This document shows, one piece after another, positions 14,830 to 39,217 of a DNA stretch of 39,638 bases (its first letter is position 1; every line of letters begins with the position of its first letter). The notes beneath the pieces are model-generated. The model did no database searches. It had not been told where the DNA came from and was given only the letters and a program-made list of their open reading frames with translations. This DNA is from Ruminococcus sp. (GTDB taxonomy: Bacteria; Bacillota; Clostridia; Oscillospirales; Ruminococcaceae): positions 1 to 39,638 of the forward strand of contig JAFXDK010000023.1 in NCBI GenBank assembly GCA_017521805.1, read 5' to 3'. A program made the translations under genes and the position numbers.

Positions 14830-14844
14830 AAAGCTGCTCCTTTC

Positions 14845-15754: not shown

Positions 15755-15761
15755 AATTGAA

Positions 15762-16991
15762 CTAATCTCTTCTGAAAATATCTCTTGTATAAACCTTGTC
15801 CTGAACATCGTCAAGGCATGAATCATAGCGATTTGCAATGATAGCATCAGATTGAGCCTTGAATTTCTCAAGGTTATTTACAACTACACTTCCGAAGAAA
15901 GTTTCCCCGTCTTTAAGTGTAGGCTCATATATTACAACAGTTGCACCTTTAGCCTTGATACGCTTCATAACACCCTGTATGGACGACTGACGGAAGTTAT
16001 CGCTGTTTGATTTCATTGTAAGTCGGTACACGCCCACAACCACACTTTTCTCTGAATCCGAGTTCCAGTCGTTATTGCCGCTGTAGCTATAATAGCCGGC
16101 TTTTTCAAGCACACGGTCAGCGATAAAATCCTTACGTGTACGGTTAGACTCAACAATTGCAGACATCATATTCTGAGGAACATCAGCATAGTTAGCAAGA
16201 AGCTGTTTTGTATCTTTAGGCAGACAATATCCGCCATATCCAAAGCTTGGATTGTTATAATGTGTACCAATACGAGGGTCAAGACACACACCGTCAATAA
16301 TCTGCTGTGTATTAAGATTTTTCATCTCAGCATATGTATCGAGCTCATTGAAATAGCTTACACGGAGAGCAAGATAAGTATTAGCAAAAAGCTTTACAGC
16401 CTCAGCCTCTGTAAATCCCATATGAAGAACGGGGATATCCTCCTTAATTGCACCGTCAACAAGAAGCTGTGCAAACTCCTTAGCCTTATCAGCAGAATTA
16501 TCATCACATGAAACAATGATTCGTGAGGGATAGAGATTATCATAAAGAGCCTTTGATTCTCTCAGAAATTCAGGGCTGAATATAATATTCTTGGTGTCAT
16601 ATTTTGCTCTTACACTTTCAGTATATCCAACAGGAATTGTAGACTTAATAACCATCATAGCATCGGGATTTACCTTGAGTACAAGCTCAATTACAGCTTC
16701 AACAGCTGAGCAGTCAAAAAAGTTTTTCTGACTGTCATAGTTTGTAGGAGCCGCAATGATTATATATTCCGCGTCCTTATATGCAGCTTCTGCATCAAGA
16801 GTTGCTGTAAGGTCAAGTTCCTTTTCAGCAAGATATTTCTCAATATAGTCATCCTGTATAGGTGATTTTTTATTGTTGATTAATTCAACCTTTTCAGGTA
16901 TTATATCAACTGCAACAACTGTATTCTTCTGCGCAAGAAGAGTTGCAATTGATAAACCTACATATCCTGTACCTGCTACTGCAATTTTCAT
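15762..16991 (-). CDS. ugd: UDP-glucose 6-dehydrogenase
   Basis: A 409-residue enzyme with the NAD-binding GTGYVG motif (7-12), SPEFLRES (139-146) and the catalytic cysteine motif [11 protein letters not shown] with Cys256. The family oxidises UDP-glucose to UDP-glucuronate with two NAD+; other nucleotide-sugar dehydrogenases of the same family (for example UDP-ManNAc dehydrogenase) are less likely given the length and APTNYD motif. It is the last gene of the polysaccharide locus. Its product is a carboxylated sugar, which would be an acceptor for the ATP-grasp ligases of the same locus (inference). The start has AAAGGAG upstream, at about 12 bases. Confidence 0.93.
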
Positions 16992-17008
16992 GACTTCACT
17001 TTACTCCT

Positions 17009-17980
17009 TTACTTTTTTCGTTTTAATTTATTTAACGGAATTGAAACCAGATATTTTATAGATTTTAAAACAGCACGTTTATGGTTCGGATGTTGGTTGT
17101 AAACATATTTCAATATCTCACGATTTTCCTTTGTTCTGTTTTTTAAGTATAGCATCAGTGCTTTCTGATGATTATCATCAAATGCGTCATTATATTTCAA
17201 ATCCTTACCAAAATACTTGGCAAGTGAAATAGCCTGATACATTCCGTCACTTACCCTACCGGTCAGATTCTTTCCTTTCATACGGGAGTTATAACTTCCA
17301 TTGGAAAATGATTTGCGATAACGAGACATCTGCTCAGACATACGCCATACTCTACCATTAAGAAGCAAAACAAGAGATATTTTCTGGTCACCATTCATAG
17401 AAGTAGATTTGCGATACTCATTCATAAAATCTGAATCGAGATTTTTCCATATATTACGATACACAAAAGATGCAAGCTGACCAATAAGAACACGGTGCTC
17501 CGCATCATTAATAGTCATTTCTCTTTCCTCCATTTTACTCCATGTAGGGTCCTGATAACCCTGATACGGCTCATCGTTTTCATCTATATACTCAACATTA
17601 TGTGTAACAGCTATGAAATCCGGATGAGATTCCAGATAATCTACCTGTCTTTGCAACTTATTTGGATCAGTCCAATAATCGTCTCCTTCGCAGTGAGCTA
17701 TATATTTACCCTGCATAACCGGCATTACATGGTTCTGAAAGGCAGGTATTTTCTTCTGAAATTGATTTTCAGTCTGTAATATAGGACGTATAATATCAGG
17801 ATATTTTTCATAATACTCACGTACAATATCTGCGGTTCTATCTGTAGAGGCATCATCATGAACAATAATCTCAATTGGAAAATCTATCTTCTGCATTAAA
17901 ATTCCGTCAAGAGTTTTTCTGATATACTTTTCATGGTTAAAAGTGATAACACACACACTCACCATAATTTCCGACTTCAT
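17009..17980 (-). CDS. Family 2 glycosyltransferase
   Basis: A 323-residue cytoplasmic enzyme. Its N-terminal GT-A fold begins VSVCVITFNHEKYIRKTLDG, and it has HDDASTDRT and a DxD-like EGDDYW at the nucleotide-sugar site. It transfers a sugar to the growing lipid-linked repeat unit; donor and acceptor cannot be told. The start at 17980 has AAGGAGG five to six bases upstream, whereas the ATG at 18007 lies inside the polymerase gene. It overlaps no other gene except that its ribosome site lies in the end of the polymerase gene, so the two are coupled. Confidence 0.92.
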   Translation of the reverse strand: MKSEIMVSVCVITFNHEKYIRKTLDGILMQKIDFPIEIIVHDDASTDRTADIVREYYEKYPDIIRPILQTENQFQKKIPAFQNHVMPVMQGKYIAHCEGDDYWTDPNKLQRQVDYLESHPDFIAVTHNVEYIDENDEPYQGYQDPTWSKMEEREMTINDAEHRVLIGQLASFVYRNIWKNLDSDFMNEYRKSTSMNGDQKISLVLLLNGRVWRMSEQMSRYRKSFSNGSYNSRMKGKNLTGRVSDGMYQAISLAKYFGKDLKYNDAFDDNHQKALMLYLKNRTKENREILKYVYNQHPNHKRAVLKSIKYLVSIPLNKLKRKK

Positions 17981-17990
17981 TTTATCCTCC

Positions 17991-19304
17991 TTATTCAACA
18001 GGTTCATCCACTATTTTTTCTCCAAGCAAATCAAGAAGCAAATCAACATCTTCATCTGACATTTCTATCTGATAGCTGCAATCCTTTAATTTTGATTTTT
18101 TGCTTTGCAACATTGTGACACCTATGCCAATAGCACCTCCAAGAAGAGGCTCATACCAGAAAGAATACGAAAACATAAGACGACAGATACTAAATGAAAT
18201 CAGAGCAAGAAATATCGGGAACTGTGGATGCTTACGATGTTTCACAAACACTCTCGCTATAAAAACAGCTAATGCAGCCAAAAGCACTGAGCCCAACAAT
18301 AGACCGAATGTAATAAGGATTTCATAAACAACATTATGACTGTAATATTGTTCATTCAGCAAGTAACGATCACCATAAGCGCCATGACCTGTAAAAATAC
18401 TGTGTCTGGACAATGCTTTTTCCAATATGCCATAAATTCTGTCACGTCCAGTAGCATCAGCGATTTCTCCCTCTGCAAGCTTCAATAATGTACGTGATTC
18501 AATGCCAAATATAACCGCAGTATTATATATCCACCTCAGTATTCCCTTGGAAGTAATAACAAGAGCGCCTAAGCAGCCAATAATAATTGTAGCAAGCTTA
18601 TATCTCGACATTCCCGGTTCAACAATTAGCATATATATAACAAGGAAACATAGGTAACCGAGAACGCATCCTCTTGAACCAAAGAAAACACCCAACGCAA
18701 TACTTAATCCACTGAGATAAAGATATCCGGTTTTTTTACGGTCATTTAAATAGAACATCAGGAATAAAATTGCAGGAAATGCAATCTGATAACCGAACAG
18801 CATATTATATTCCTCTGCTGTTTCCTGTTGTGCAGGTCGTAAAAACCCCCATGAATTGCCTATAAAGTTAATCCATGCTATGATTTTGAAATCATATTCA
18901 AGCTGTTTCAGATTTTTCTGACATCTTATAAAGTAATATGCAAAAGGCGCAGAAACAAAATTCAGCACATTTCCCCAGATAGCCCATTGAGGATTATCAA
19001 AAAATACTCCTCTGTACTCAGGATGTATTTTTAACGTTCCAAAGAATATTCCTGCTGTCAAACCAATTACAATGATGCCGTCAATACGAAGTGAGCCACG
19101 CTCGTTTAAAATAGATAAACCGAGAAAAAGATATATTACCCCAAGCAGTCCAAAAGCTATAAGACTTTTGCTTATCGGTACAAGTCCGAACAAATTTGTC
19201 AATGCAACTTTAGAAAAGAACAAAATAATAGCAATATCCTTATATCTGTAACGCTTTGTACAGTCCTGCCATATTCTTATAAATCTTTCAAGCGCATGTT
19301 CCAA
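17991..19304 (-). CDS. O-antigen/polysaccharide polymerase (Wzy-like)
   Basis: A 437-residue membrane protein with about eleven hydrophobic segments and one large loop carrying FTGHGAYGDRYLLNEQYY followed by SHN. This glycine-histidine-rich region is characteristic of the Wzy/O-antigen ligase family. It would polymerise flipped repeat units on the outer face of the membrane. It starts with an unusual TTG (19302-19304); GAGGTG (19312-19317) is seven bases upstream and no in-frame ATG fits. The C-terminus is an acidic cytoplasmic tail. Wzy proteins are too divergent for the linkage formed to be predicted. The Wzx partner is encoded at 36425-37891. Confidence 0.85.
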   Translation of the reverse strand: MEHALERFIRIWQDCTKRYRYKDIAIILFFSKVALTNLFGLVPISKSLIAFGLLGVIYLFLGLSILNERGSLRIDGIIVIGLTAGIFFGTLKIHPEYRGVFFDNPQWAIWGNVLNFVSAPFAYYFIRCQKNLKQLEYDFKIIAWINFIGNSWGFLRPAQQETAEEYNMLFGYQIAFPAILFLMFYLNDRKKTGYLYLSGLSIALGVFFGSRGCVLGYLCFLVIYMLIVEPGMSRYKLATIIIGCLGALVITSKGILRWIYNTAVIFGIESRTLLKLAEGEIADATGRDRIYGILEKALSRHSIFTGHGAYGDRYLLNEQYYSHNVVYEILITFGLLLGSVLLAALAVFIARVFVKHRKHPQFPIFLALISFSICRLMFSYSFWYEPLLGGAIGIGVTMLQSKKSKLKDCSYQIEMSDEDVDLLLDLLGEKIVDEPVE

Positions 19305-19345
19305 AATGCATCACCTCATTCCCTGATACACAAAATCGTTTCTGA

Positions 19346-20527
19346 TTATCCAGTAATAAATTTTTCCAATTTTTTATTCTGAATACTTCTTGAATACGTG
19401 ACGGTATCAGCTTCATCAGTTAATTTTGTTATGGATTTTTCGATTATTTCACCGATAGCCTTTTCCGTATCTGCAAGCTGACTGCATGCATAACCGCCGG
19501 AAAATCCCGAAACAAGCTCAGACAAATATGTATTAGGAGCTCCCACGTAAAGAACAGGTCGGTTAGCATATATATAATCGTAAATTTTTGTTCCTATCGC
19601 CTGCTTGCGAATATCCACAAGAAGATTCACATCAGCATTTTTCAGCATTTCCATACCTATCTGATAAGGACAAAAGCCTGTGCAAATAAAATGGTCAGAC
19701 GGAAATCCAGTTTCCTGCATCATTCTGTCAATTTCCATTTCCCTTTCTCCGATGTGAAAAATCACAAGATTCGGATATTTTTTTAACAATGATGCTGCGG
19801 CTGTCAGAAGCATTTTTCCATAATCATAGGAATAATATATCAGCTTGCCAAAAGAAGCAAGAATAACAGCATTCTGGCGATTTGGAATTGTATTGAGTAT
19901 TTCCTCAGCCTTATTTCGTTCTTCATCCGTAATCTGAGCAAAAAGGGTATCATCGTATCCGTTGTACACAACGTTTATCTTATCACGGTATTTTCTGTAT
20001 GCACGGCGCAGAATATCTGCCCAGCCGTCAGTAACTGTTATTACCGCATCAGCTGATGCAATTGCGTTGCGCTCAATAGGATAGAACATTAATTTACGGC
20101 TAAGTTTTTTGGGTGAAAAAAATTCTTTCTTGCTACGCATATCAAAAATCCACAAATCACGATAATCAAGAACGCAGCGTGTATTGAATTCATTTTTGCA
20201 TATTTCACACAGCGGAACAGTTTCATAAGAGCCGCAGGTTATAAAAACACAATCAGGTTTCTGTTCCTTCATACAGCGGCGGAATTCTTCCTTATATGCT
20301 TCACTGCGATGTGGATAGCTTTCTTTCGTATTCTGTACAACTTCTGTAATTGAATCTATCTTCCCTGTTCCGAAATTTTTTGCTTCCTCTGTACGTTCAT
20401 CCATTTTATTCGTAAGAACAGAAATTGAATGTCCCTGTTTAAGCAAATAACGCACAAGACTTGAAACACGCACTACCGCCACAGTTGCATATGGTGGGAA
20501 ATGGGTTGCAACAATCAAAATTTTCAT
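19346..20527 (-). CDS. Family 4 glycosyltransferase
   Basis: A 393-residue GT-B enzyme. The N-terminal domain begins MKILIVATHFPPYATVAVVR, typical of GT4, and the C-terminal domain has VVYNGYDDTLF and the acceptor/donor region GTKIYDYIYANRPVLYVG. It lacks the classic EX7E exactly, as many GT4 members do. It adds one sugar to the repeat unit at the cytoplasmic face. The ATG overlaps the stop of the preceding glycosyltransferase gene by four bases (20524-20527), so translation is coupled. The donor is not known. Confidence 0.9.
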   Translation of the reverse strand: MKILIVATHFPPYATVAVVRVSSLVRYLLKQGHSISVLTNKMDERTEEAKNFGTGKIDSITEVVQNTKESYPHRSEAYKEEFRRCMKEQKPDCVFITCGSYETVPLCEICKNEFNTRCVLDYRDLWIFDMRSKKEFFSPKKLSRKLMFYPIERNAIASADAVITVTDGWADILRRAYRKYRDKINVVYNGYDDTLFAQITDEERNKAEEILNTIPNRQNAVILASFGKLIYYSYDYGKMLLTAAASLLKKYPNLVIFHIGEREMEIDRMMQETGFPSDHFICTGFCPYQIGMEMLKNADVNLLVDIRKQAIGTKIYDYIYANRPVLYVGAPNTYLSELVSGFSGGYACSQLADTEKAIGEIIEKSITKLTDEADTVTYSRSIQNKKLEKFITG

Positions 20528-21696
20528 TTCGCTGACGCACCTTTCGAAAAATTAATATCCAAAGCATTTTTCATCCTCTGTAGCAAATCCATAGCAACAG
20601 AAGACTGGCTGAACTTTTTCTCAGCCTCAGAAGCAATTGAATCAGAAGAAAAGCGATTTCTCTCATTTTTCATAAATATCATAGCCTGAGCCATGCTGTC
20701 TACATCGTCAGGCGGAACAAGTATACCGTTTGCATCATGGAGATAAACTTCAATAGAACTTGGCTTAACACCGATAACCGGTTTTCCGCTGCACCATGCT
20801 TCAATAAATGGCACACCAAAAGTTTCCAGAACACTTGCGGATACAAAACAATCTACCTGCCGCATAAGCTCAGCAACCTTTTCACGTTCAATAGGACCTG
20901 TCATTGTAACTTGTTTTTCAATTCCAAGATTTTTAATCTGATTTTTTAATACATCAGCCAGTTCACCGCCGCCAGCAACAATAAGCTGTACATTTTCATT
21001 ATCCTTAAACGACTTTGCAAATGCCTCAATAACAATATCAAAACGTTTTCCAGGCACAAGTCTTCCTACAGCAAAAAAACGAAATTTATCGTCATTACTA
21101 TTTTCATTTGCAGGAAAAAACAAAGGCGATACCATATTTGGAATTACCGAAATATCACGCTTTGTTCCTGTTAGTTCCATTACACTTTTACGAAGAAGAT
21201 GCCCTACGCAGATAAATTCAGATGCCTCATAAACAATCTTTTTAAGTAAATTCACTCGAAATGTTTCAAGATTTTTTGTCTGGACCTTTGACCAATGCTC
21301 AGTAACTAAAACAGGCACTCCATAGCTTTTCAGTTTTTTCCATATTTTCTCAGTCATGGTTAGAAGCGGAAAATGTACGTGTATAGCATCAGGCGCACCA
21401 TTTTTTTCACATTTCTTTATAGCATTGAGCATACAAGATGATTTAAGCGGCTGGAAAAGGCACTGAGGCAAACCGCCTACAGGAAGATAATTTCCGCAAA
21501 GAGCCACTTCATCTTTAATACGGCAGTCCTTTCCGCAGGTTCTGAGCACTTTAACAGAACGGTTATCAGCAAAAAGATAGCTTACCTGCACATCTTCGCC
21601 ATAACGCTGCAAAGCCTGTGCCTGCTCAAATTCAAATATACCCATCATTCCGGTTTTTACTTCAGGCACTGTACGGCCTATAACCCAGATTCGCAT
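20524..21696 (-). CDS. Family 4 glycosyltransferase
   Basis: A 390-residue GT-B enzyme with a glycogen-synthase-like C-terminal domain: FAVGRLVPGKRFDIVIEAFA, LIVAGGGELADVL, and the donor-site motif SVLETFGVPFIEAWCSGKPV, which contains the E-x7-E signature. The N-terminal half has HVHFPLL and TEHWSK. It transfers a sugar from a nucleotide donor to the lipid-linked intermediate. AAAGGAG lies about seven bases before the ATG. It is the middle of a tight run of epimerase and glycosyltransferase genes. The donor is unknown. Confidence 0.93.
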   Translation of the reverse strand: MRIWVIGRTVPEVKTGMMGIFEFEQAQALQRYGEDVQVSYLFADNRSVKVLRTCGKDCRIKDEVALCGNYLPVGGLPQCLFQPLKSSCMLNAIKKCEKNGAPDAIHVHFPLLTMTEKIWKKLKSYGVPVLVTEHWSKVQTKNLETFRVNLLKKIVYEASEFICVGHLLRKSVMELTGTKRDISVIPNMVSPLFFPANENSNDDKFRFFAVGRLVPGKRFDIVIEAFAKSFKDNENVQLIVAGGGELADVLKNQIKNLGIEKQVTMTGPIEREKVAELMRQVDCFVSASVLETFGVPFIEAWCSGKPVIGVKPSSIEVYLHDANGILVPPDDVDSMAQAMIFMKNERNRFSSDSIASEAEKKFSQSSVAMDLLQRMKNALDINFSKGASAK

Positions 21697-21707
21697 ATAC
21701 TACTCCT

Positions 21708-22610
21708 TTATTTCTGTGCTGACAAAAGCATTTCAACAAGCTCCTGTGTAAACTTTTCCATTGAAATTTCGGGCTTCCACGAAAACTGCGACATAAATCT
21801 TGTACTATCCAGAGCAGAACAAAGCCTGTCTTCTGAGGGATTAATCTCAAATGCAGAAAGCTTGTTCCCTGTATACGTTTCAACCGTGCTTTTGGCAAGT
21901 TCTGCAAGTTCAACTATACCCCATTCACGTTCTGCACCGATATTGTAAACTTTCTCCCACTTTTCACAGTCAGCAGAAGCAAGACAAAGCAAAGCTACCG
22001 CAGCATCGCGCACATCGAGAAAGCCAAAACTCTGATAACCTGCATTAACAGATATCTCGCCTTTTTCTATAGCGTTTTTAACAAAGCGGTTTATTATACG
22101 CACATGGAAATCAAGACCGATAAGGCTTGCCATACGCAAATTTGTGAAAGGTACATTTTTTTCATGGCATAATACTTCAAGGAGCTGTTCACTCATATAC
22201 TTTGAAACAGCATATCTGTTTTCAGGAGAAACCTGAGTATTCTCATCAGCAGGAGCAGTTCGCTTGCTGTCATAAACGCTCTGTGATGAAATATTGGCTA
22301 CAGCGCCTACACCGCCATTTATTGCAGTTTCAAAAACATACTTCTGGAAATCAAGACCCTTTGCAAAGCCTACACTGTCATTGTTTCTCGGGAATGCGCA
22401 ATGAAGAAGCACATCAATATCTGAGAAATCATAGCCGTTTCTCAGAAAATCTTCACTCTGCAGATATTCATAACGATTTCCGAATTCCTGTTCAAGAGAG
22501 CTGCTCTGTGAAGAAAGGGCAATTATGCGCAGTTTAGAATCAACAGCAAGACGCAGAAATTCTCTGCCCAACATTCCGCCTGCACCTGTAAGAAAAATTG
22601 TTTTACTCAT
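21708..22610 (-). CDS. NAD-dependent epimerase/dehydratase (SDR family)
   Basis: A 300-residue extended short-chain dehydrogenase: TGAGGMLG (8-15) for NAD(P), ANISSQSVYDS (catalytic serine region), and YAVSK (Tyr-x3-Lys). It resembles sugar 4-epimerases, dehydratases and GDP/dTDP-sugar reductases; which reaction it performs cannot be settled from sequence. Given that dTDP-4-keto-6-deoxyglucose is made upstream in this locus, reduction or epimerisation of a keto-sugar nucleotide is plausible (inference). AAGGA before the ATG overlaps the end of the preceding ATP-grasp gene, 11 bases away. Confidence 0.88.
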   Translation of the reverse strand: MSKTIFLTGAGGMLGREFLRLAVDSKLRIIALSSQSSSLEQEFGNRYEYLQSEDFLRNGYDFSDIDVLLHCAFPRNNDSVGFAKGLDFQKYVFETAINGGVGAVANISSQSVYDSKRTAPADENTQVSPENRYAVSKYMSEQLLEVLCHEKNVPFTNLRMASLIGLDFHVRIINRFVKNAIEKGEISVNAGYQSFGFLDVRDAAVALLCLASADCEKWEKVYNIGAEREWGIVELAELAKSTVETYTGNKLSAFEINPSEDRLCSALDSTRFMSQFSWKPEISMEKFTQELVEMLLSAQK

Positions 22611-22621
22611 TATATATATCC

Positions 22622-23929
22622 TTAATCAAGCATACCTTCAAGGTCTGATTTTTCAAGTCCTGGTAAAAGAAGATTTTCACCCTCAGGAGATGTTACACTG
22701 AGACAGTTATAAACAGTTTTAAACTGATTCCACAATGCTTCTTTTGTAGGAGCCTCTCCAAGAACGCGGAGCATAATCTGACGAAGCTGCCCTTTTCCCT
22801 CAGGAGGCAGAGTTTCTCCCTCATGACGAGCAAGAACAGCGTCGATAACGCCCTCTGTAGCAAGTATATCCTCAACACCTGTAATTTTTCCGATAGTACC
22901 GGGTTTCATAAGGAAAGAAACATTGCTTCCGTATACTTTCCAATTTGGATTAATGACATTTCTAAGGTCTTCATCAGCCATTTTACCTGTAAATGCAAAA
23001 TGTATAAGCATTTCAAGAGGGTCATATCCTCCGATGCGCTTCATATTCAGGTATTCCAGTGAACCTGTAAGACGATATCCTATATCGTATACCAGACATT
23101 CGCCGTCCTCAACCATACACTGCATAAACATCATACCATTCTTTATGCCGACAGAAGAAAGCATTTTTTCAACATTCGGAAGTACATTTTTCTGATAATT
23201 AGGAAGCAGAGCTGACGGATAAGAATATGCAACAGGAAGAGCAATAGAATCTTCCTGATTTTTCTTTACATGACGGTTGCCCATACCACTGAGAATGATA
23301 TTGCCGTCCTGAAAAACATAGAAGACAGTAACTTCCTTGCAGGAATCCACAAAACGCTCCACGAGAACCTTGCCTGATTCGGAAACTCTTTCAGCCTCTT
23401 CACAGGCGGCTATCATCTGCTCCTCATTTTCACAGATAGCCACACCTCTTGCGCCGCTACTATCAGCAGGCTTTACAAGTACGGGATAACGGATATAATC
23501 CCAGCTTTCAGTGCGGTTATGGAAGTCTACATCATAAGAATCAATTGTAGGCACGCCAAACTGACGGCAAAGGGCTTTATACTGTGTCTTATCAGTCATT
23601 TTTTCAAACTGCTCTCTTGTGCCATAGCAGGGAAGTCCAACTCTCTCACAAATATCAGCATAATAAGGCAGTACGGAATCGGTAAATCCAGTAATAATAC
23701 CGTCAATCTTCTTCTCACGGACAAGCTGTTCCATAGCGTCCAAGTCAGTAGTACTTACAAAGCAAGCCTCATCTGCAATCTGCTTTGCAGGAGATCTTTC
23801 AAGTGCATACCAGTCAGTAACAAGAACATATGCCCCCATTTCCTGTGCTTTTTTTACTACCTGACAGCTTATTCTTGAACCACCAAGGATAAGCAGACGT
23901 TTTCCTTCAAATTCTCTACCCATTTTCAT
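22622..23929 (-). CDS. ATP-grasp carboxylate ligase (paralogue of 32505-33806)
   Basis: A 435-residue ATP-grasp protein. The N-terminal pre-ATP-grasp part (about 10-120) reads KRLLILGGSRISCQVVKKAQ and ERSPAKQIADE. The ATP-binding core has YPVLVKPADSSGARGV (substrate- and Mg-ATP-binding loop) and a glycine-rich YDIGYRLTGS in place of the usual N-x-R metal site. It has the architecture of biotin-carboxylase-like carboxylate-amine ligases, which form an amide through an acyl phosphate. Donor and acceptor are unknown. It is clearly related over its length to the ligase at 32505-33806. In this setting it probably attaches an amino acid or amine to a sugar acid, or makes an activated side group (inference). 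AAAGGAG before the ATG supports the start. Confidence 0.88.
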   Translation of the reverse strand: MKMGREFEGKRLLILGGSRISCQVVKKAQEMGAYVLVTDWYALERSPAKQIADEACFVSTTDLDAMEQLVREKKIDGIITGFTDSVLPYYADICERVGLPCYGTREQFEKMTDKTQYKALCRQFGVPTIDSYDVDFHNRTESWDYIRYPVLVKPADSSGARGVAICENEEQMIAACEEAERVSESGKVLVERFVDSCKEVTVFYVFQDGNIILSGMGNRHVKKNQEDSIALPVAYSYPSALLPNYQKNVLPNVEKMLSSVGIKNGMMFMQCMVEDGECLVYDIGYRLTGSLEYLNMKRIGGYDPLEMLIHFAFTGKMADEDLRNVINPNWKVYGSNVSFLMKPGTIGKITGVEDILATEGVIDAVLARHEGETLPPEGKGQLRQIMLRVLGEAPTKEALWNQFKTVYNCLSVTSPEGENLLLPGLEKSDLEGMLD

Positions 23930-24011
23930 AATGCTCCTTTAACTTACAGGATTCTCTGAAAACCATAATACAAGCGTAATAAAGCCTTAAATACGATTTT
24001 CGGTAAACCTC

Positions 24012-24989: not shown

Positions 24990-25025
24990 GATTTAATTCA
25001 TTCCTTTCTTATATTCATGAACGAC

Positions 25026-26726: not shown

Positions 26727-26883
26727 CTTGAAAACCTCACTTTTCTCAACAAAATCTCGTTGTGTACCCATATTCCGAACAAAAATTAATACTTATACAT
26801 CGGAACAGAGCACAACCGAAAGAAAAGGCATCCGCAAAGCAAAAATGAATTTTTTACGGTATCTCCTTACAGCACTATCTTAT

Positions 26884-26912: not shown

Positions 26913-26962
26913 GCTGAATACAGCGTATTTTCATTATTTAAAAAAGTAAACAATATAATTTT

Positions 26963-26989: not shown

Positions 26990-27011
26990 TCACATCAATA
27001 ATTTGTATAAA

Positions 27012-28040: not shown

Positions 28041-28050
28041 ATTTTTCTCC

Positions 28051-28935: not shown

Positions 28936-28945
28936 TCTGAAACAC

Positions 28946-30100: not shown

Positions 30101-30102
30101 GA

Positions 30103-31212: not shown

Positions 31213-31228
31213 TATATTCACTCCATTA

Positions 31229-32503
31229 TTACACAGTCAAAGGATAAAACAGCGGTACAAAAACTATAATTGACAGCACAACAAGAATATCAAGAAGCCA
31301 TGTATACTTTATATAGTCAGAAAATTTATATCCTGCAACAAGTGTCATAGCTGTCTGAGCATTTGCAAGGGGGGTGCTGAATGTAAGATTTGCCGCAAAT
31401 ACAATACCAAGTGTAAATGCAATAGGATTAAGCTGATTTGCCATACAAAGTGAAAGTGCGACAGGAAGCAAAATAACAACGGCTGTAGAGTTTGTAATAA
31501 AGTTGCTGACAATCATTGTAACAACCACAAATATAGCAAAAAGCACAACTACGGGTATGCCTGATTCTACAATGCCTGAAAGCGCATTGCCAATCATATC
31601 GCCTAAACCGCCCTTAGTAATACCGGAAGCAATACCGAGACATCCTGCAAGTACAAATACTACAGACCAGTCCATATTTTTTATAACACTTTTCTGAGTT
31701 GTACAACCTGTGATTATACAAAGCAATGCCGCAATAACAGCTGTAGTATGTGTAGGAATCCAAGCACCGATAAATGAAATAATTGTCAGAATAAAGATAA
31801 CAAGCATGATAATCATTTTCTTCTTGTTTATTTTCACTTCTTCGACAACGGTCTCAGATTCTTTGATTTCAACGGCTTCACGATTTCCCCATATTTTATT
31901 ACCTATCTTATGACCGATTGTAAGAACAAATATCATATATACAGCTGTTATACATACACCGGGAAGCGTATAATCGAACATTCCGATTTCAGTTCCGCTC
32001 ATTTCTGAGAGAATACCGTTTGCTGTAAGCTGAGGAGTAGACCCAACAAGTGTACACACGCCGCCGAACATAGCACCCATTGTAACAGGGAGAGTTATGT
32101 TCATACGGTTCATATTCTTATCACTGCTGGAAATACTTGCAATTATGGGGAGAAATATTGCAATTACTGCAGTATTGGAAAGAAAAGTTGATAATAAAGC
32201 TGATGAAAGACCGGCAAGCAGTATAAACATCTTTTCCTTGTGTCCCGAAAGCTTTGCAACTTTCTGTCCCACAAGATTTGCCGCACCTGTGTCCATCATG
32301 GCTATTCCGACTATCATCATACCAAACATCAGTATTACAGTTGTATTTGAAAATCCTGAAAAGGCGGCACTGAAATCGCATACCCCTGTGAGAGCGAAAA
32401 GCAGACATCCAAGACAAGCCGTAACTGCATTTGGGAAAGGTCTTGTAATAAATAAAACAATACAAACAACAAGTATAATAAGACTGATTATTGCAGGTGA
32501 CAT
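31229..32503 (-). CDS. SLC13/DASS-type anion permease
   Basis: A 424-residue membrane protein with about eleven hydrophobic segments, in two homologous halves each with an asparagine-serine-threonine hairpin: TFLSNTAVIAIFLPII and SNFITNSTAVVILLP, the SNT motifs of SLC13 divalent-anion/sodium symporters. Members import dicarboxylates, citrate, sulfate or related anions with sodium; the substrate is unknown. The ribosome site GAGGAGG overlaps the end of the upstream ATP-grasp gene, and the start is one base after its stop, so the two are coupled. A transporter of this family is not a standard part of polysaccharide loci. Confidence 0.88.
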   Translation of the reverse strand: MSPAIISLIILVVCIVLFITRPFPNAVTACLGCLLFALTGVCDFSAAFSGFSNTTVILMFGMMIVGIAMMDTGAANLVGQKVAKLSGHKEKMFILLAGLSSALLSTFLSNTAVIAIFLPIIASISSSDKNMNRMNITLPVTMGAMFGGVCTLVGSTPQLTANGILSEMSGTEIGMFDYTLPGVCITAVYMIFVLTIGHKIGNKIWGNREAVEIKESETVVEEVKINKKKMIIMLVIFILTIISFIGAWIPTHTTAVIAALLCIITGCTTQKSVIKNMDWSVVFVLAGCLGIASGITKGGLGDMIGNALSGIVESGIPVVVLFAIFVVVTMIVSNFITNSTAVVILLPVALSLCMANQLNPIAFTLGIVFAANLTFSTPLANAQTAMTLVAGYKFSDYIKYTWLLDILVVLSIIVFVPLFYPLTV

Positions 32504-32504
32504 T

Positions 32505-33806
32505 TTATACCTCCTCTGCCTGTCTGAGACAGTCAGTATTTAATTTTGAAATTATCATTGATTCTCCGTTTTCATCATCAATCTTCAATGTTTCATACAT
32601 ATTGTCAATAATATCTGCCATAGCCTTTTTACTTTCACACAACAGGTCTATTTCGCAGAAACGCTGGTTGACGTTATAATAAGCGCCAATCTCGTCACCT
32701 ACATGATATTTCTGGAAATATGCTGTTACAGCAGGATGCTTGCTTATTTCCTCAACTCCGCTTATAGAAGCAATTTTTCCGGGACGGATCGGGATAAATA
32801 AAGCAATTGCAGCTTTCCCGTCAAGTCTAACGCTGTCAGATAACCATGAATAGTCATCAGTTATCTCTCCTGTCAGAGCGTATTCAATGTATGCGTTAAT
32901 GGGATTCTTGCCATAAACACCCACAACATTGCGTTCATAGTCAATACCGGGGAAACGAAGTCCGGGATCATAGAAACGGACAGTATCACCGTCCACAAAT
33001 CCCTGCATGAATACGGGAGCATTTTTAAGACCCATAGCCTTAATCAGCTTCACAACTTTTTCATGAACCTTTTCCTCATACATAGAAGTAAAAACAGAGG
33101 GATTAATAGACGCAATAGCAGACTTGTCCATATGGTCCTCAACAGCGCCGAGAACTCTGTCACATGTACGTTCAAGGTATATTTCTCCATTGATAACAAG
33201 AGCAGTAATGGAAAAATCGTTATTTCTTCCCATATAGCGCTCAATTACAACTTCACCGTTTCCGCTTTCAGAAAGAGCAAACTCAATAGCAGATTTAACC
33301 TCGCTGTATTCACTGCATATTGTCTGACCTCTTGAGCCACGGCTCATCCCCGGTTTTATAAGAACAGGGAATGTAACACGTTCAGAGCAGATTTCCTCAG
33401 TCTCAAAATCAGCAGGAGTGTATGAGGGAATAACATCAACGCCATTTTCAATACAAATTTTCTTGAATGACTTCTTATCTGTCAGATAGCGGAACTGTTC
33501 AGCACTACCGAAGCAGGGAAGTCCAAGACGCTCACAAACCTGCTGATATGGAAGCTGACACGCATCAAGATGAGTTGCCAGAACACCGTCAATTTTTTCT
33601 TCACGACACATTTCCACAATTTCGTCAATATCAGTAATGTTGTGCATATAATACTTGTCGGCAATCTCCTTTGCAGGAGCCTTTTCAACGGGGAGATAAT
33701 CAGTTACATATACTGTGACTCCCAACGCTTTTGCAGCCTCAACAACCTTGCGATGCTGAAATGCACCGCCTATAAGCAATAATTTCTTGCCAGCAAGATT
33801 TTTCAT
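32505..33806 (-). CDS. ATP-grasp carboxylate ligase (paralogue of 22622-23929)
   Basis: A 433-residue ATP-grasp protein sharing with the 22622 gene the N-terminal pattern KKLLLIGGAFQHRKVVEAAK, PAKEIADK, and ERLGLPCFG. The ATP-binding loop reads FPVLIKPGMSRGSRGQ and a later YDPGLRFPG takes the place of the metal-binding NxR. Like its paralogue, it should activate a carboxylate as acyl phosphate and couple it to an amine. GGAGG before the ATG at 33806 favours this start over the TTG at 33821, which overlaps that site. It is coupled to the SLC13 permease, which may supply its carboxylate (inference). Confidence 0.88.
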   Translation of the reverse strand: MKNLAGKKLLLIGGAFQHRKVVEAAKALGVTVYVTDYLPVEKAPAKEIADKYYMHNITDIDEIVEMCREEKIDGVLATHLDACQLPYQQVCERLGLPCFGSAEQFRYLTDKKSFKKICIENGVDVIPSYTPADFETEEICSERVTFPVLIKPGMSRGSRGQTICSEYSEVKSAIEFALSESGNGEVVIERYMGRNNDFSITALVINGEIYLERTCDRVLGAVEDHMDKSAIASINPSVFTSMYEEKVHEKVVKLIKAMGLKNAPVFMQGFVDGDTVRFYDPGLRFPGIDYERNVVGVYGKNPINAYIEYALTGEITDDYSWLSDSVRLDGKAAIALFIPIRPGKIASISGVEEISKHPAVTAYFQKYHVGDEIGAYYNVNQRFCEIDLLCESKKAMADIIDNMYETLKIDDENGESMIISKLNTDCLRQAEEV

Positions 33807-33844
33807 ATAATACTCCTCCAAATAAAGCTCATAGGATCAATAAA

Positions 33845-34966
33845 TTATTCCCACCAGAATTTCTGTTCAGGCTTCCAACCAAGAATATTTTCCAGTTCCT
33901 CACGGAAACCTCTTTCAATAATTATCTGTGCCACGAATTCGCCATTGTCATTTCCTTCCATAACAACCCAGCCATTATCAGTATGAACCATATCCCAACC
34001 AATATATCCAACTGTCGGGAGCATATCAGAAAGCTGTTTAAGCTTCATTTTAAGGTCGTCCATATCAGGAATCGGATAGCCAATAAATTTAATATGTGTA
34101 TCAGGATGTTCTGCATAACGCTCGCATACCTCGTTAAAACCGTCTGTATTGGCAACGCCCTTTTCCCAGTCAACACCAACCATAAGACTTCCATAAGTAG
34201 CACCGGTTACGAAATCACCGCCGATTCCCACCTTTAACCAAGGATAGAAGCAAAGAACTTCATCGCCAACGCGAACAGTTGTGCAACGCATACAGTTTGC
34301 AGAAGCAGGATGAAGTTTTGACATAGCCTCAGACTGCTTAATAATTTCTTCACATACAACAGATGCAGAATTTCCCCATGCGTGTTCTGCATTATTAGCT
34401 GAACCCTCTGCAAGAAGCGTATCAAACAGTTCACGCACATCTTTTCCTGTTGAATCAACCTTATGTACACCCACACATCTGCCCAGATCCTCAGGCTTAG
34501 CAACAAATACAGGATGTTTTTTTACAAAGTCAGCAAATATATCGAAATCCTTTTCACCGGAAATTTCAATTACATCGCGCTGATAAAATGGCTTGAAGTA
34601 CTGATATGCATCATACTTATTTTTAAGATAATGAGTATCATTGCTGTTATTCAGCTTTTTTGTATAAAGAAAACGGCTGCGGAAAGAGATATATGTTTTC
34701 TTATATTCGTCTGTACCCTCGCCCTCACGATTTACAAGACCATAACAAAATTCCTCATCTATATTGAATCCATAAGCCCAATAATCATAAATGGACTGAT
34801 AATAAACGTTCATTTTACTTTCTTCCGAAGCCTCAGGCATCATCTTATTGATTTTTGCCATTATAAGACCATATGTACGCTCATTATAGATATCTTTTTT
34901 CTCTGCTGCAATATCCTTGCCGATACTTATCATTTCAGCAAGATTCTCTGTAATTTTTAAATTCAT
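33845..34966 (-). CDS. Sugar-transfer-associated ATP-grasp protein
   Basis: A 373-residue protein matching the Pfam ATPgrasp_ST group (sugar-transfer-associated ATP-grasp): HPASANCMRCTTVRVGDEV, then VGIGGDFVTGATYGSL, and at the C-terminus VGYIGWDMVHTDNGWVVMEG followed by NDNGEF, the metal/ATP-binding end of the fold. Such proteins occur in capsule and polysaccharide loci and their reaction has not been fixed; they are thought to ligate an amine to a carboxylate. The N-terminal 100 residues look like a helical region. AAGGGG lies before the ATG. Confidence 0.88.
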   Translation of the reverse strand: MNLKITENLAEMISIGKDIAAEKKDIYNERTYGLIMAKINKMMPEASEESKMNVYYQSIYDYWAYGFNIDEEFCYGLVNREGEGTDEYKKTYISFRSRFLYTKKLNNSNDTHYLKNKYDAYQYFKPFYQRDVIEISGEKDFDIFADFVKKHPVFVAKPEDLGRCVGVHKVDSTGKDVRELFDTLLAEGSANNAEHAWGNSASVVCEEIIKQSEAMSKLHPASANCMRCTTVRVGDEVLCFYPWLKVGIGGDFVTGATYGSLMVGVDWEKGVANTDGFNEVCERYAEHPDTHIKFIGYPIPDMDDLKMKLKQLSDMLPTVGYIGWDMVHTDNGWVVMEGNDNGEFVAQIIIERGFREELENILGWKPEQKFWWE

Positions 34967-34977
34967 AATCTTTCCCC

Positions 34978-35982
34978 TTATATTTTAGTAAGATACAATT
35001 CCTTAAATCCAACCGTTCCTGCTTCGGCTGAAAGAGATTCAAATGAAACATCTTCACCACGGCACCAGTTCACAATAGCCTGAGGCAGATTGCATCCGCC
35101 CATGTGACTGAAAGGATATCCGCCGCCGAATCGTGCATTCATTTCAAGTACATAGGGAACACCATTTACCATAAACCAGTCGGTATCCATGTTGGCGATA
35201 TGCCCTGTGATTTCAGCAAGTTTTCTCGCCTCAGCCGCCAGAACAGGCTCATCAACAATTTCAGCAATATCAGTTTCACCGGCACGCATTGCAATTTTCT
35301 TCTTTGCAATTACACTTTGGTTCACACCATTAAGATTATTGATAAGATCCACACCGTATTCCTGTCCGTCAAGGCATTCCTGATATATAATCTTCTCGTC
35401 CTCCGCAGCGGATTCGTATTTGAGATATGTACGGTTTACAGCTCGGGTATTACGGCTGTAGTAGTAGAGAAGTCCCATTTCATCCTCAGCAATGGAAAGC
35501 GCAATTGAACCGCATCCGAAACGAGGCTTTACAACAATGGGATAACTAAGTTCACCACTTTCAATGGCAAGCATTACCTTTGAAAGCGTAAGATATGTTT
35601 TAGGCACATTAAAGCCCTTATTTTTAAGATACTGATATGTTTTCCATTTATCGTTGCAGACTTCGATAACCTCAGGGTCGGAAACAATAACTCTTGTGCC
35701 GACTGCTGCAAAATCAGCCTTGTGCTTTGCAAGCACCATAAGATCAATATCGAAAAGTGAGATAAGAACATCTATCTTATTTTTCTTACAATAATCAAGG
35801 AGAAAAGGGATATAGTTCTCATCATATATCAAGGGAGTAATTACGCTGTGGTCAGCGTAGTGAAAAGCAATAGTCTTGTCGTCGGAATTACTGACAAAAA
35901 CATGTCCGTTTCCCTGCAAAGCTTCCTTGAAATATTTCACCATATAAGCACGTCTGCCGACAGAAGTCAGTAATACATTCAT
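34978..35982 (-). CDS. ATP-grasp ligase (carbamoyl-phosphate-synthase-like)
   Basis: A 334-residue ATP-grasp protein with the compact pattern of CarB-like members: MNVLLTSVGRRAYMVKYFKE, NDKWKTYQYLKNKGFNVPKT, YPIVVKPRFGCGSIAL (ATP loop), and VLEMNARFGGGYPFS with the NxR metal-binding motif intact. Such small ligases attach amino acids or sugars acids to amines, or form D-Ala-D-Ala-like bonds. It is the third ATP-grasp gene in a row and the most canonical of the four. AAAGGAG lies nine bases before the ATG. Confidence 0.9.
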   Translation of the reverse strand: MNVLLTSVGRRAYMVKYFKEALQGNGHVFVSNSDDKTIAFHYADHSVITPLIYDENYIPFLLDYCKKNKIDVLISLFDIDLMVLAKHKADFAAVGTRVIVSDPEVIEVCNDKWKTYQYLKNKGFNVPKTYLTLSKVMLAIESGELSYPIVVKPRFGCGSIALSIAEDEMGLLYYYSRNTRAVNRTYLKYESAAEDEKIIYQECLDGQEYGVDLINNLNGVNQSVIAKKKIAMRAGETDIAEIVDEPVLAAEARKLAEITGHIANMDTDWFMVNGVPYVLEMNARFGGGYPFSHMGGCNLPQAIVNWCRGEDVSFESLSAEAGTVGFKELYLTKI

Positions 35983-35984
35983 AC

Positions 35985-36428
35985 TTAATTCTCCTTTGAA
36001 AACTCAAAAATAAAGTGCACATCCGATTCTCTCGGTTCATCTGGCATTTCCCATTCCACAAACCCCAGACGATGATACATTGCCAATGCGGGTTCATTAC
36101 GTCTGTCAGCATAAAGATGAACGGCTTTGAGATTCTTTTGTGCAGCGATATCGAGAAAACGGCGTATCAACTGAGATGCGTAACCGTTTCCCTGTGCTTC
36201 GGGTAATGTTGCGACAACTGAAAGATAGCCGCGATTTTCAACTACATTATCAGTATAGCCTGCTGCAAGTGCAACAATTTCTTCGCCGTTCAGTTGAGCG
36301 CATACTGTTGCTTTCTCGTTAAATTTTTCTGCAAGAGAATGAAGGTCACATTTTTGCGATAACGGAACAGGGAATAAATTGTCAACTTTTCTGAGAAATC
36401 TTTCAAGCTGCGCTGTTGTTACATTCAT
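35985..36428 (-). CDS. GNAT-family N-acetyltransferase
   Basis: A 147-residue acetyltransferase of standard GNAT size. The acetyl-CoA loop PEAQGNGYASQLIRRFLDIA and the C-terminal NEPALAMYHRLGFVEWEMP are diagnostic. It probably acetylates an amino group: the amino-sugar nucleotide made in this locus is the obvious candidate (inference). It overlaps the flippase gene by four bases (ATGA, 36425-36428) and the next ATP-grasp gene follows two bases after its stop, so the three are translationally coupled. Confidence 0.9.
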   Translation of the reverse strand: MNVTTAQLERFLRKVDNLFPVPLSQKCDLHSLAEKFNEKATVCAQLNGEEIVALAAGYTDNVVENRGYLSVVATLPEAQGNGYASQLIRRFLDIAAQKNLKAVHLYADRRNEPALAMYHRLGFVEWEMPDEPRESDVHFIFEFSKEN

Positions 36429-37891
36429 TTTGTTTCCCCCTGCTTCTTTCTCTTACCCAACATATTTTTAATCATTGAAAGAATGTACTCAAAACTTTCA
36501 ACTTTAAATATCTTTGAAGCTACGACATAAATCAGTACTCCAAGAGGAATCTGAATGAGCAGTGTAACAATTGAAGGCAGCTTCAGGAATTCTACGCAAT
36601 ATACAATAGCAGCCATTACAAGAGAAAGACCAATCTGCGGAAGCATATCCTTAAACTGTTCAAAGTAAGAATATCCGAGTAATTTTTTATTCGGAAATGC
36701 GTTTACAAAACTTGCAATCAATGTCGAAATAAGGAGACTATATGCCATTGCCATAACTCCCTGGAACATTGTAGCAAGAAGCAGAATAACTCCTACAACC
36801 TTTTTAATAATTTCAAGGATAAGGAACAAATCGCTTCGTCCCATAGCCTTAATTGCATTGAGATTCGCAGTGTGTATAGGATAAAAGGCGTAAGTTATGC
36901 AGAATATACGAAGATAAGGCACGCAGGGCAGCCATTTTTCTGTGAGCATAAGTTCTATAAGCGGTTCTGCACATACAGCCAGTCCAAGCATAACAGGCAT
37001 CATGATATATGTGCTTATTTTTATAGAACGTCTTGTCATAGCGCATACACGGCTTTTGTCGTCCTGCGCATTAGACATAGTAGGCAGAAGCACACTGTCT
37101 ATAGAAGAATTTATATCTGTTACTGCAAGATGAGGCAGTTTTTTTCCCTCATTATAAAATGCAAGGTCGCTTTTTGTATATACTTTACTGATAACAAGCT
37201 GACGTGCCTCATTATAAAGTGTATCCAGAAGCTTTGAAACAAGTATCTTCCAGCCATATGCAAACAATGACTTCAGACGTTCAAAGGAAAACGCTTTTTT
37301 TGGACGCCATTTTACAGTTATCCAGAGAAACGCTGTACTTGCCGCAAGATTAAAGAGATACTGAGCAACCAGAGCCCATACGCCAAAACCGAGATATGCC
37401 ATAACGATACCAACAACAGCAGCACCTAATGTACCTCCGAGGGTAGCAAAAAAGAATCGCTTGAACAGCATATGCCGTGAAACATACGCCTGCTGAACAT
37501 TTCTTACACCGGAAATAATCAGCATAAGGCTCTGTACACGGACAACAGGTGTAAGCTCAGGCAATTCATAAAAATCCGAAATAAGCGGAGCCGAAAAAAA
37601 CATGATTGCGTACATCGCAACACAGAGTACTACATTAAAATAAAATACAGTTGAAAAGTCAAGGTCATCTGCATCTTTTTTCTGTATCAGGGCATTTCCC
37701 ATACCGCTGTCAACAAATACCTGCATAAGTGTTGTGAAAATCATAATCATTCCAAGAGTTCCGTATTCCTCAGGTCCTAAAATGCGAGCGAGTATCATAG
37801 AAACTACAAATGAAACAACCTGTGCACCGCATCTTTCAAGAAAACGCCAGAATAAATTAACTACAGTTTTTATTGAGCTTGATTCAGCCAT
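36425..37891 (-). CDS. Wzx-type oligosaccharide flippase
   Basis: A 488-residue membrane protein with twelve to fourteen hydrophobic segments. The N-terminal FVVSMILARILGPEEYGTLG is the polysaccharide-biosynthesis (PST/MOP) transporter signature, and the length is normal. It moves undecaprenyl-linked repeat units to the outer face of the membrane, where the Wzy protein at 17991-19304 polymerises them. AAAGGAG lies about seven bases before the ATG. It is the second gene of the first transcription unit. Confidence 0.93.
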   Translation of the reverse strand: MAESSSIKTVVNLFWRFLERCGAQVVSFVVSMILARILGPEEYGTLGMIMIFTTLMQVFVDSGMGNALIQKKDADDLDFSTVFYFNVVLCVAMYAIMFFSAPLISDFYELPELTPVVRVQSLMLIISGVRNVQQAYVSRHMLFKRFFFATLGGTLGAAVVGIVMAYLGFGVWALVAQYLFNLAASTAFLWITVKWRPKKAFSFERLKSLFAYGWKILVSKLLDTLYNEARQLVISKVYTKSDLAFYNEGKKLPHLAVTDINSSIDSVLLPTMSNAQDDKSRVCAMTRRSIKISTYIMMPVMLGLAVCAEPLIELMLTEKWLPCVPYLRIFCITYAFYPIHTANLNAIKAMGRSDLFLILEIIKKVVGVILLLATMFQGVMAMAYSLLISTLIASFVNAFPNKKLLGYSYFEQFKDMLPQIGLSLVMAAIVYCVEFLKLPSIVTLLIQIPLGVLIYVVASKIFKVESFEYILSMIKNMLGKRKKQGETK

Positions 37892-37951
37892 TATGCCTCT
37901 CCTTTAACATCTATAGGGAACACCTATATAAATTAAATATTATACAATAAT

Positions 37952-39217
37952 TCAAAAACAACTTTTAATAATTTCGATAATAATATCCTGCTCTTCCGGA
38001 GTCATTTTGTTATCACTGGGGAGACAAAGACCTCTGTTGAAAATATCTGAGCCCACATCTGCAAAATCACCTTTGATATATGCATTTGTTTTTGCTCTGC
38101 CGCTGCCCATTGCAGTAATAAAATCATTTTTTCTGAAAATGGGCTGTGCGTGCATAGGCTTCCATACAGGACGACCCTCAGCATTATACTTCGCAAGTTT
38201 TTCAAGGATTTCAGTAGGACAGCTTTTTCCGTCCTCACTTATGTAAAGAGCATCAGAACCGCTTCTAACCTGACGGCACATAGCGTCTTTATCGATAATT
38301 ATACAGCTGAGCCAGAAGTTAGGCTCACTGTTTTCAGAATCATAGGGATTCATGCTTACAGGAAGTCCCTTGAAGCCCTCTTTGTAGCGTTCATATATAG
38401 CCTTTTTCTGAGCGATATGCTCATCAAGATATGGAATCTGTCCGCGGACAACGCCTGCAATAACGTTGGACATTCTGTAATTATAGCCGATTTCCTCATG
38501 CTGATACCACGGAGCAGCTTCACGGCTCTGAGTAGACCATTTTCTTACCTTTTCAACATCTTCTGTGGAATCTGTCAGGAACATACCGCCTGAGGAACCT
38601 GTAATAATCTTATTGCCATTGAAAGATATGGCGCTATAATCGCCGAATCTGCCTGTCTGTACACCTTTATAGGAAGCACCAAGAGATTCAGCAGCGTCTT
38701 CAATAAGAAGAGCATTATGCTTTTTGCATATTTCTTTAATTTCATCAATTTTTCCGGGTATACCGTAGAGATGAACGAGAACAACAAGACGTACATCGGG
38801 ATACATTTCAAAAGCCTTTTCAAGAGCAGCAGGATCCATGTTCCATGTATCATATTCTGTATCAATGAAAACAGGCTCACCGCCCTCATAAATAACGGGA
38901 TTTATAGTAGCGCTGAAAGTTACATCAGAGCAGAAAACCTTGTGACCGCAAAGCGCACCCTTCCCTGTCTTAGTAATACCGTAAAGCTTTTCACCTGCAA
39001 GCTTTACACTGAGATGAAGCGCGGAAGTACCGGAAGCAAGAGCAGCGGCATGTTGACATCCGATTTTTTCAGCAATCAGGGATTCAACCGTATCAATATT
39101 AGTACCGATTGTTGACATCCAGTTAGAATCATAGGCTTCTGTTATATAAACAATTTCATCGCCATGCATAGTAGGCGTTGAAAGCCATACTTTACTTTCA
39201 AAAGGTTTAAGCTCCAC
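37952..39217 (-). CDS. EpsN-like sugar-nucleotide 4-aminotransferase
   Basis: A 421-residue PLP enzyme of the DegT family. Close in pattern to Bacillus EpsN and Campylobacter PglE, it has WLSTPTMHGDEIVYI, SNWMSTIGTN, EYDTWNMDPAALEKA, LLIEDAAESLGASYKG with Asp174, and ISFNGNKIITGSSGG with Schiff-base Lys203. EpsN/PglE aminate UDP-4-keto-6-deoxy-GlcNAc; the matching 4,6-dehydratase is not in the window. It starts with GTG at 39217, with AAGGAG seven bases upstream; the ATG at 39271 has no such site and family members begin here. It is the first gene of the polysaccharide locus, preceded by a consensus promoter. Confidence 0.9.
   Translation of the reverse strand: MELKPFESKVWLSTPTMHGDEIVYITEAYDSNWMSTIGTNIDTVESLIAEKIGCQHAAALASGTSALHLSVKLAGEKLYGITKTGKGALCGHKVFCSDVTFSATINPVIYEGGEPVFIDTEYDTWNMDPAALEKAFEMYPDVRLVVLVHLYGIPGKIDEIKEICKKHNALLIEDAAESLGASYKGVQTGRFGDYSAISFNGNKIITGSSGGMFLTDSTEDVEKVRKWSTQSREAAPWYQHEEIGYNYRMSNVIAGVVRGQIPYLDEHIAQKKAIYERYKEGFKGLPVSMNPYDSENSEPNFWLSCIIIDKDAMCRQVRSGSDALYISEDGKSCPTEILEKLAKYNAEGRPVWKPMHAQPIFRKNDFITAMGSGRAKTNAYIKGDFADVGSDIFNRGLCLPSDNKMTPEEQDIIIEIIKSCF

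Follow-up and report, generated by a model that had tools for sequence, protein, structure and literature searches.

Why does one surface-polysaccharide locus carry four ATP-grasp ligases, and on which sugar would they act? The question is raised by a contig of Ruminococcus sp. (GenBank assembly GCA_017521805.1, contig JAFXDK010000023.1). We call this stretch of 39,638 nt the window; it is a whole contig of a 2.54-Mb draft genome in 112 contigs. A continuous run of genes, all on the minus strand, extends in it from 39271 to 15762. An earlier sequence-only reading had placed four ATP-grasp genes, a FemAB-like acyltransferase, a GNAT acetyltransferase, a Wzx flippase and ugd in this run, and all were borne out when 20 window proteins were scanned with Pfam and NCBIfam and the bit scores compared with curated cut-offs.

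The four ATP-grasp proteins, each above its ATP-grasp family cut-off, are a PylC-like protein (34978..35982; PF21360, PylC-like_N, 92.2 bits against 27; PRK12767, 335.7 against 316), a predicted ATPgrasp_ST (ST) ligase (33845..34966; PF14397, 118.6 bits against 31.4, E 3.8e-34) and two L-amino-acid-ligase-like (LAL) proteins, labelled LAL1 (32505..33821; PF02786, CPSase_L_D2, 41.5 bits against 19.8) and LAL2 (22622..23929; PF02786, 51.8 bits against 19.8). We found that LAL genes follow DegT2, a gene for making a 4-amino sugar, and not ugd. On balance, we lean towards amide decoration of that amino sugar as the core function of the locus.

LAL genes accompany a 4-amino-sugar gene

The sequence-only reading had named two acceptors, glucuronate made with Ugd or an amino group. 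The window encodes enzymes for both. Ugd, a nucleotide-sugar 6-dehydrogenase of the UDP-glucose type, is the product of the last gene of the locus (15762..16991; TIGR03026, 311.5 bits, over the cut-off of 189.8). DegT2 is a probable dTDP-4-keto-6-deoxyhexose 4-aminotransferase (30103..31221; DegT, 310.2 bits; best NCBIfam match DesI, 260.9 bits, under the cut-off of 650). The same run encodes RmlA, glucose-1-phosphate thymidylyltransferase (28051..28935; TIGR01207, 466.5 bits, over 360.65), and RmlB, dTDP-glucose 4,6-dehydratase (27012..28079; TIGR01181, 498.1 bits, over 365.1).

We searched 100 Ruminococcus genomes, drawn evenly from a larger group with the window's genome included, for LAL, ST, PylC-like, DegT2 and Ugd genes. 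Homologues of DegT2 numbered 26 in 25 genomes, with identities of 59-94% apart from the window's own. A LAL gene lay within 10 kb of 21 of the 26, or of 20 of the 25 without the window. Counted by genome, DegT2 and LAL occurred together in 23, DegT2 alone in 2, LAL alone in 9 and neither in 66. By contrast, only 5 of 73 Ugd genes (4 of 72 without the window) had a LAL gene within 20 kb. When DegT2 and Ugd were both measured at 20 kb, the difference gave a Fisher p of about 2e-12, a contrast partly unfair to Ugd, as short fragments are counted among the 73 and some copies are probably not in polysaccharide loci. These results establish that LAL genes follow DegT2 rather than Ugd, and the LAL acceptor is therefore likely to be a 4-amino-4,6-dideoxyhexose rather than glucuronate. 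Of the two acceptors first named, the amino sugar is thus favoured for the LALs, and glucuronate as a general acceptor is disfavoured for them.

Catalytic residues of the ATP-grasp proteins

LAL1 and LAL2 share about 30% identity. Because the genes at 22622 and 32505 fall in one group, the locus holds three kinds of ATP-grasp and not four. In an alignment of 39 ATPgrasp_ST sequences, the window's counted, K157, D325, E337 and N339 were invariant, and the D..E.N pattern corresponds to the ATP-grasp metal residues. E280, N282 and R284 were invariant across 7 PylC-like sequences. In the LAL group, K116, K156, E194 and R289 were invariant across 18 sequences, and LAL1 and LAL2 retain both lysines and the arginine.

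L-amino-acid ligases have two acidic metal ligands. At these positions LAL1 and LAL2 carry Q and then D, with G replacing the Asn two residues on, so that their activity is not assured. Elsewhere in the group the first of these positions is E, D, N, S or Q and the second E or D, and the Asn is kept in 1 of 40 rows of two LAL alignments (22 and 18 rows, some proteins in both). We considered that the LAL active sites might be dead and did not accept this, because carbamoyl-phosphate synthase also has Q where it aligns to the first LAL metal position and the four residues named above are invariant.

On sequence grounds, the name "LAL" denotes resemblance, and of the two proteins only LAL1 supports it with a LAL_C2 domain (32.2 bits against a cut-off of 29.4); in the Pfam scan LAL2 reached 19.4 bits for this domain. 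Among solved structures the LAL profile matched 4dim best (8.5e-64; PDB entry name phosphoribosylglycinamide synthetase); it also matched the carbamoyl-phosphate synthase 1bxr (2.1e-45), the L-amino-acid ligase BL00235 (3vot, 4e-44) and the L-amino-acid ligase BacD (3wo1, 2e-26). The match was nearly full-length for BL00235 and partial for BacD. LAL1 and LAL2 differ from both of these enzymes in the Q and D at their metal positions and in their polysaccharide setting. A phmmer search for solved relatives of ATPgrasp_ST gave only two unrelated matches (E 0.07 and 0.4). Glutamate-ligase, RimK and VanA matched a 39-row ST profile at E 0.001 to 0.02, the same level as a repetitive surface protein, and were not used as ST relatives.

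Large rows of ATP-grasp genes are unusual

In the 100 genomes we counted 85 ATP-grasp genes, comprising 52 LAL (hits to E 1.9e-33), 14 ST (over the family cut-off) and 19 PylC-like genes (to E 3.4e-26). Weaker LAL hits were left out before counting; the open frames of those listed mostly look like housekeeping or otherwise long ATP-grasps such as carbamoyl-phosphate synthase. The 85 genes lay in 58 loci: one in 43, two in 10, three in 2, four in 1 (the window) and six in 2.

Random placement of the 85 genes on the 244 phosphoglycosyl transferase (PGT) hits of these genomes predicted about 0.1 loci with at least four ATP-grasps, and 3 were observed, the window included. For loci with at least two, 15 were observed against 11.7 expected, which is little or no excess. 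With 144 loci as the denominator, at least three loci with four or more genes arose in less than 1% of trials. The effect was gone (74% of trials) when only the 58 occupied loci were used as the denominator; under this null every gene must fall in one of them. Large ATP-grasp rows are thus unusual and pairs are not.

The sequence-only reading had called for a survey of co-occurrence of its four ligases. Two LAL, one ST and one PylC-like gene together were found in the window alone among the 100 genomes, which rules out a fixed four-gene cassette. LAL, ST and PylC-like genes shared one locus in 3 of the 100 (G000, G001 and G011).

Related loci carry longer rows

A scan of a genome collection with close ST sequences yielded 16 loci, each holding at least one ST by selection. 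Their source titles pointed to ruminants in 9 cases and to "Lapin" (rabbit) in 3, and gave no host in 1; another 3 bore RUG labels, which we take to denote rumen genomes. The set overlaps the genus survey: L053 and L030 are one locus, that of G011, L058 is the G001 locus and L060 is the G082 locus.

By profile counts, 8 of the 16 loci hold at least four ATP-grasps. L053 and L054 each have a PylC-like, a LAL and 4 ST genes. The others have 2 LAL and 3 ST (L057), 2 LAL and 2 ST (L062), one LAL and 5 ST (L063), 3 LAL and 3 ST (L065), one LAL and 3 ST (L067), and one LAL and 6 ST in a row (L068, with an eighth, TupA-like ATP-grasp upstream). Three ATP-grasps each were found in L058, L059 and L064, two in L055 and one each in L056, L060 and L061; L066 has a LAL and an ST gene plus two ST pieces left uncounted. 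L044, from the genus set, has 2 LAL and 4 ST genes. The longest row in these related gut loci thus comprises seven ATP-grasps. In a class-wide draw, ST was found in 44 of 391 genomes (E 1e-15), with never more than two matches per contig, and long ST rows are therefore not general in Clostridia. The short non-ribosomal chain proposed by the sequence-only reading is supported only indirectly, by these relatives with four to seven ATP-grasps per locus. The exact four-gene set is not conserved.

Some neighbours recur in loci fetched for carrying LAL or ST. A LAL gene is directly followed by an SDR gene in the window, L028, L030, L050, L051, L054 and L057, and in all seven the LAL gene comes directly after a PGT gene or one gene further. 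The window's SDR is an epimerase/dehydratase-like protein (21708..22610; PF01370, 85.5 bits). Its PGT (25026..26771; PF02397, 195.3 bits, residues 22-196) is fused to a divergent DegT-like domain (37.8 bits, residues 257-540). A protein similar to this C-terminal half adjoins a LAL in L034 (11021-11965), L035 (10403-11353), L044 (4315-5274) and L065 (1781-2728); the L044 protein had no Pfam match at E 1e-5. A lysine at DegT2's spacing to the following glycine occurs in the window, L034, L035 and L044, one column off in a MAFFT alignment, with L065 outside the alignment. As judged from this residue, the divergent domain likely has an active pyridoxal-phosphate site.

The FemAB-like aminoacyl transferase (24012..24989; PF02388, 46.5 bits; FemX, 57.7 bits, under the cut-off of 500) adjoins a LAL in the window, as does a FemAB in L031. 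Some loci have, close to a LAL, a gene whose product would acetylate or expose amines: GNAT-like in L033 and L034, and a PIG-L deacetylase in L031. Thymidylate-kinase genes were also seen within loci for dTDP-sugars and ATP-grasps (L030, 2686-3351; L029, 3808-4464).

Possible acid and amino-acid supply genes

Chosen open reading frames (ORFs) were scanned in 8 other loci with at least four ATP-grasps. Transporters or enzymes of small-acid or amino-acid metabolism were found in 4 of the 8: fumarase, MmgE/PrpD, a sodium-solute symporter (SSF) and a C-C bond lyase in L068; an amino-acid permease, a 2-hydroxyacid dehydrogenase and MmgE/PrpD in L065; an amino-acid permease in L067, where one ORF was scanned; and ApbA and alanine dehydrogenase in L044. 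Among smaller loci, L029, with three ATP-grasps, carries behind them (13137-18696) an aldo/keto reductase, a 375-aa thiamine-pyrophosphate enzyme, a 300-aa protein without a Pfam match, a C-C bond lyase and both fumarase halves in a row, and also has MmgE/PrpD. L024, with one LAL, has ApbA.

Two candidates for a constant partner of the ATP-grasps were rejected. The DASS transporter has 9 other hits in the genus, and 0 of the 9 are on the same contig as any LAL, ST or PylC-like gene listed. MmgE/PrpD occurs in 4 of 100 genomes, in 1 of them (G001) within an ATP-grasp locus. In L044, two PGA_cap (CapA-type) genes (12616-13773 and 14902-16122) are interleaved with ATPgrasp_ST genes, which suggests a peptide-polymer link.

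A proposed pathway and its alternatives

The gene content, the conserved catalytic residues of the ATPgrasp_ST and PylC-like proteins and the tie of LAL to DegT2 are shown by the data; which reactions take place, on which acceptor and in which sequence, and what the GNAT and the transporter do, we infer as follows. RmlA, RmlB and DegT2 would very probably make a dTDP-4-amino-4,6-dideoxyhexose, as their family membership strongly argues. ATP-grasp ligases, the LAL type first, would convert a small carboxylic or amino acid to an acyl phosphate, and the LAL may well couple it to the sugar's 4-amino group, on a nucleotide or lipid carrier, as linkage and family suggest. The ATPgrasp_ST and PylC-like proteins, the second LAL and the FemAB-like protein might then extend or branch the amide substituent or act on other sugars. 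The GNAT (35985..36428; PF00583, 60.7 bits), a possible N-cap enzyme, might close a free amine of the substituent, and the DASS/CitMHS anion transporter (31229..32503; PF03600, 200.9 bits) could conceivably import the acid. The decorated repeat unit would be flipped by Wzx and polymerised. An amide-modified surface polymer, as first proposed, is thus the best reading of the locus and a partly supported one.

Several observations count against this pathway. Although 29 of 52 LALs lie within 10 kb of a DegT2 gene, 23 do not, and 5 of the 26 DegT2 genes lack a LAL at that distance. ST lies within 20 kb of DegT2 in just 2 of 26 cases and PylC-like likewise in 2 of 26 (one ST coordinate per locus), so for each of these two families the tie to the amino sugar is drawn from the window and a single further case. 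The closest relative found for LAL1 (42% identity; L022, 8993-11730) sits beside an SSF symporter among sugar-catabolic genes. Carbamoyl-phosphate synthase matches the LAL profile as well as 3vot does. L030, in which all gene-strand ORFs of at least 110 aa are accounted for, has no supply gene, and none was found among the ORFs scanned (part of the total) in L057, L062 and L063. The Q and D metal positions of the LALs, the lack of excess among pairs and the absence of the DASS transporter from other ATP-grasp contigs belong on the same side.

The strongest alternative, itself an unlikely one, is that every ligase makes one separate amide on a different sugar and that there is no chain. It fits the lone ATP-grasp in 43 of the 58 loci and the existence of two LAL slots, one beside DegT2 and the other beside the PGT and SDR genes, both filled in L028 and L051. 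However, L030 has six ATP-grasps against one GT2 glycosyltransferase and a PGT in 18 kb, and the six ST genes of L068 are consecutive. Ligases outnumber sugars in these two loci, and successive ligations are therefore argued there.

Rows of four to seven ATP-grasps and supply genes in 4 of 8 loci are compatible with stepwise amide assembly and do not prove it. We advance, quite tentatively and as a proposal that in full is rather improbable, that gut Clostridia and one Victivallales metagenome-assembled genome make non-ribosomal peptide-like or polyamide-like glycan side chains of defined sequence. Up to seven ATP-grasps in a row, about one per amide bond, would build such a chain from the amine of a dTDP-amino-sugar, fed in some loci by genes supplying acids or amino acids. 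The window would be a four-ligase member in which FemAB and GNAT provide extra steps.

It is doubtful that the ligases instead amidate glucuronate, either UDP-glucuronate made with Ugd or glucuronate in the repeat unit, at C6 with amines or amino acids, as in the Campylobacter jejuni HS:2 capsule. There, according to the portion of PMC11800379 on this enzyme, the TupA-like ATP-grasp domain Cj1438C makes an amide at C6 of glucuronate. In favour of this alternative, ugd closes the window's locus, an ST gene lies about 2 kb from ugd in G062, and L067, with its LAL and three ST genes, has a relative of Ugd (70%) on the other strand. Against it, only 4 of 72 other Ugd genes have a LAL within 20 kb, a comparison weakened by the Ugd copies probably outside polysaccharide loci. 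The TupA family (PF14305) was matched by none of the 20 window proteins scanned, and in L068, with six ST genes, nothing in the 21 kb read matched the window's Ugd.

That the ATP-grasps make a small molecule or unusual precursor unattached to the polymer, such as a dipeptide or an amide cofactor, is suggested by the nearest LAL1 relative, which lies outside a polysaccharide locus, and is very improbable given a continuous run of glycosyl-transfer genes around the window's ligases and the strong LAL-DegT2 linkage.

Relation to known systems

According to the passage on such operons in PMC4431377, distinct ligases of the ATP-grasp and GNAT types that are encoded together often carry out ligations one after another; teichuronopeptides and the O-antigen are named. 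As in the window, several distinct ATP-grasps and a GNAT share one operon there, and acyl capping by the GNAT is proposed. The statement is a general one that cites earlier work, and that passage does not include Ruminococcus loci, ST rows or a link to a 4-amino sugar. The C-terminal amidoligase of Cj1438 resembles the window's ligases as an ATP-grasp in a capsule locus and, as the section concerned reports, has been shown to place an amide on a sugar; it differs in being TupA-like, in using the glucuronate carboxylate and in having one ligase domain, whereas the window has PF14397 and LAL-type proteins (PMC11800379). Loci of the CA_C2195 type for modified carbohydrates likewise place an ATP-grasp amino acyl ligase (CA_C2189) among Clostridium sugar genes, but the relevant part of the table in PMC4000134 gives one ATP-grasp and a sialic-acid-like pathway, and the window has four.

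The general principle of successive ligation by ATP-grasp and GNAT enzymes is thus already published. Among the matches listed from the open-access literature, no title or abstract dealt with ATP-grasp rows in Ruminococcus, and none of these matches showed the form found in Ruminococcus, the rows of ST genes or the link to an amino sugar. Passages of PMC2824669 and PMC12419801 have no direct bearing on the locus. If the proposal is correct, the coats of gut Ruminococcus carry acids or short peptide-like groups in amide linkage, determined by a row of ligases that works without a template, and this would be relevant to recognition of these bacteria by phages and the immune system. The ATPgrasp_ST family would gain a testable reaction, and the LAL-DegT2 linkage supplies a concrete first candidate substrate.

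Other genes of the locus and its surroundings

The first visible gene, for a LegC-type DegT aminotransferase (37952..39271; DegT, 243.6 bits; LegC family, 288.5 bits, under the cut-off of 420), ends 367 bases short of the contig end at 39638, and the upstream part of the locus is missing. In transcription order it is followed by genes for the Wzx-type flippase (36425..37891; PF13440, 337.8 bits, over the cut-off), GNAT, the PylC-like protein, ATPgrasp_ST, LAL1, the DASS/CitMHS transporter, DegT2, a membrane acyltransferase (28946..30100; Acyl_transf_3, 59.2 bits), RmlA and RmlB. The second half encodes the PGT-DegT-like fusion, the FemAB-like protein, LAL2, the SDR, a GT4 glycosyltransferase (20524..21696; PF00534, 117.6 bits), a GT4-like glycosyltransferase (19346..20527; PF13439, 58.1 bits), a putative Wzy polymerase (17991..19304), a GT2 glycosyltransferase (17009..18007; PF00535, 79.4 bits) and Ugd. 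Three DegT domains are encoded altogether.

Flippase and PGT both score above their cut-offs, as expected for the Wzx/Wzy pathway. The Wzy named in the sequence-only reading is present as a candidate only, with a sub-threshold match (Wzy_C, 18.8 bits against 31.7); it stands among glycosyltransferases, where Wzy is expected. The run of genes is a Wzx-type surface-polysaccharide locus of Ruminococcus.

Directly downstream of ugd, on the same strand, lie ABC-2 type exporter genes and a gene for a 235-aa protein without a Pfam match (12483-15552). Further along, at 313-5533, the window encodes a BspA-type leucine-rich-repeat protein with a dockerin and a family-11 rhamnogalacturonan lyase, which fits a fibre-degrading Ruminococcus.

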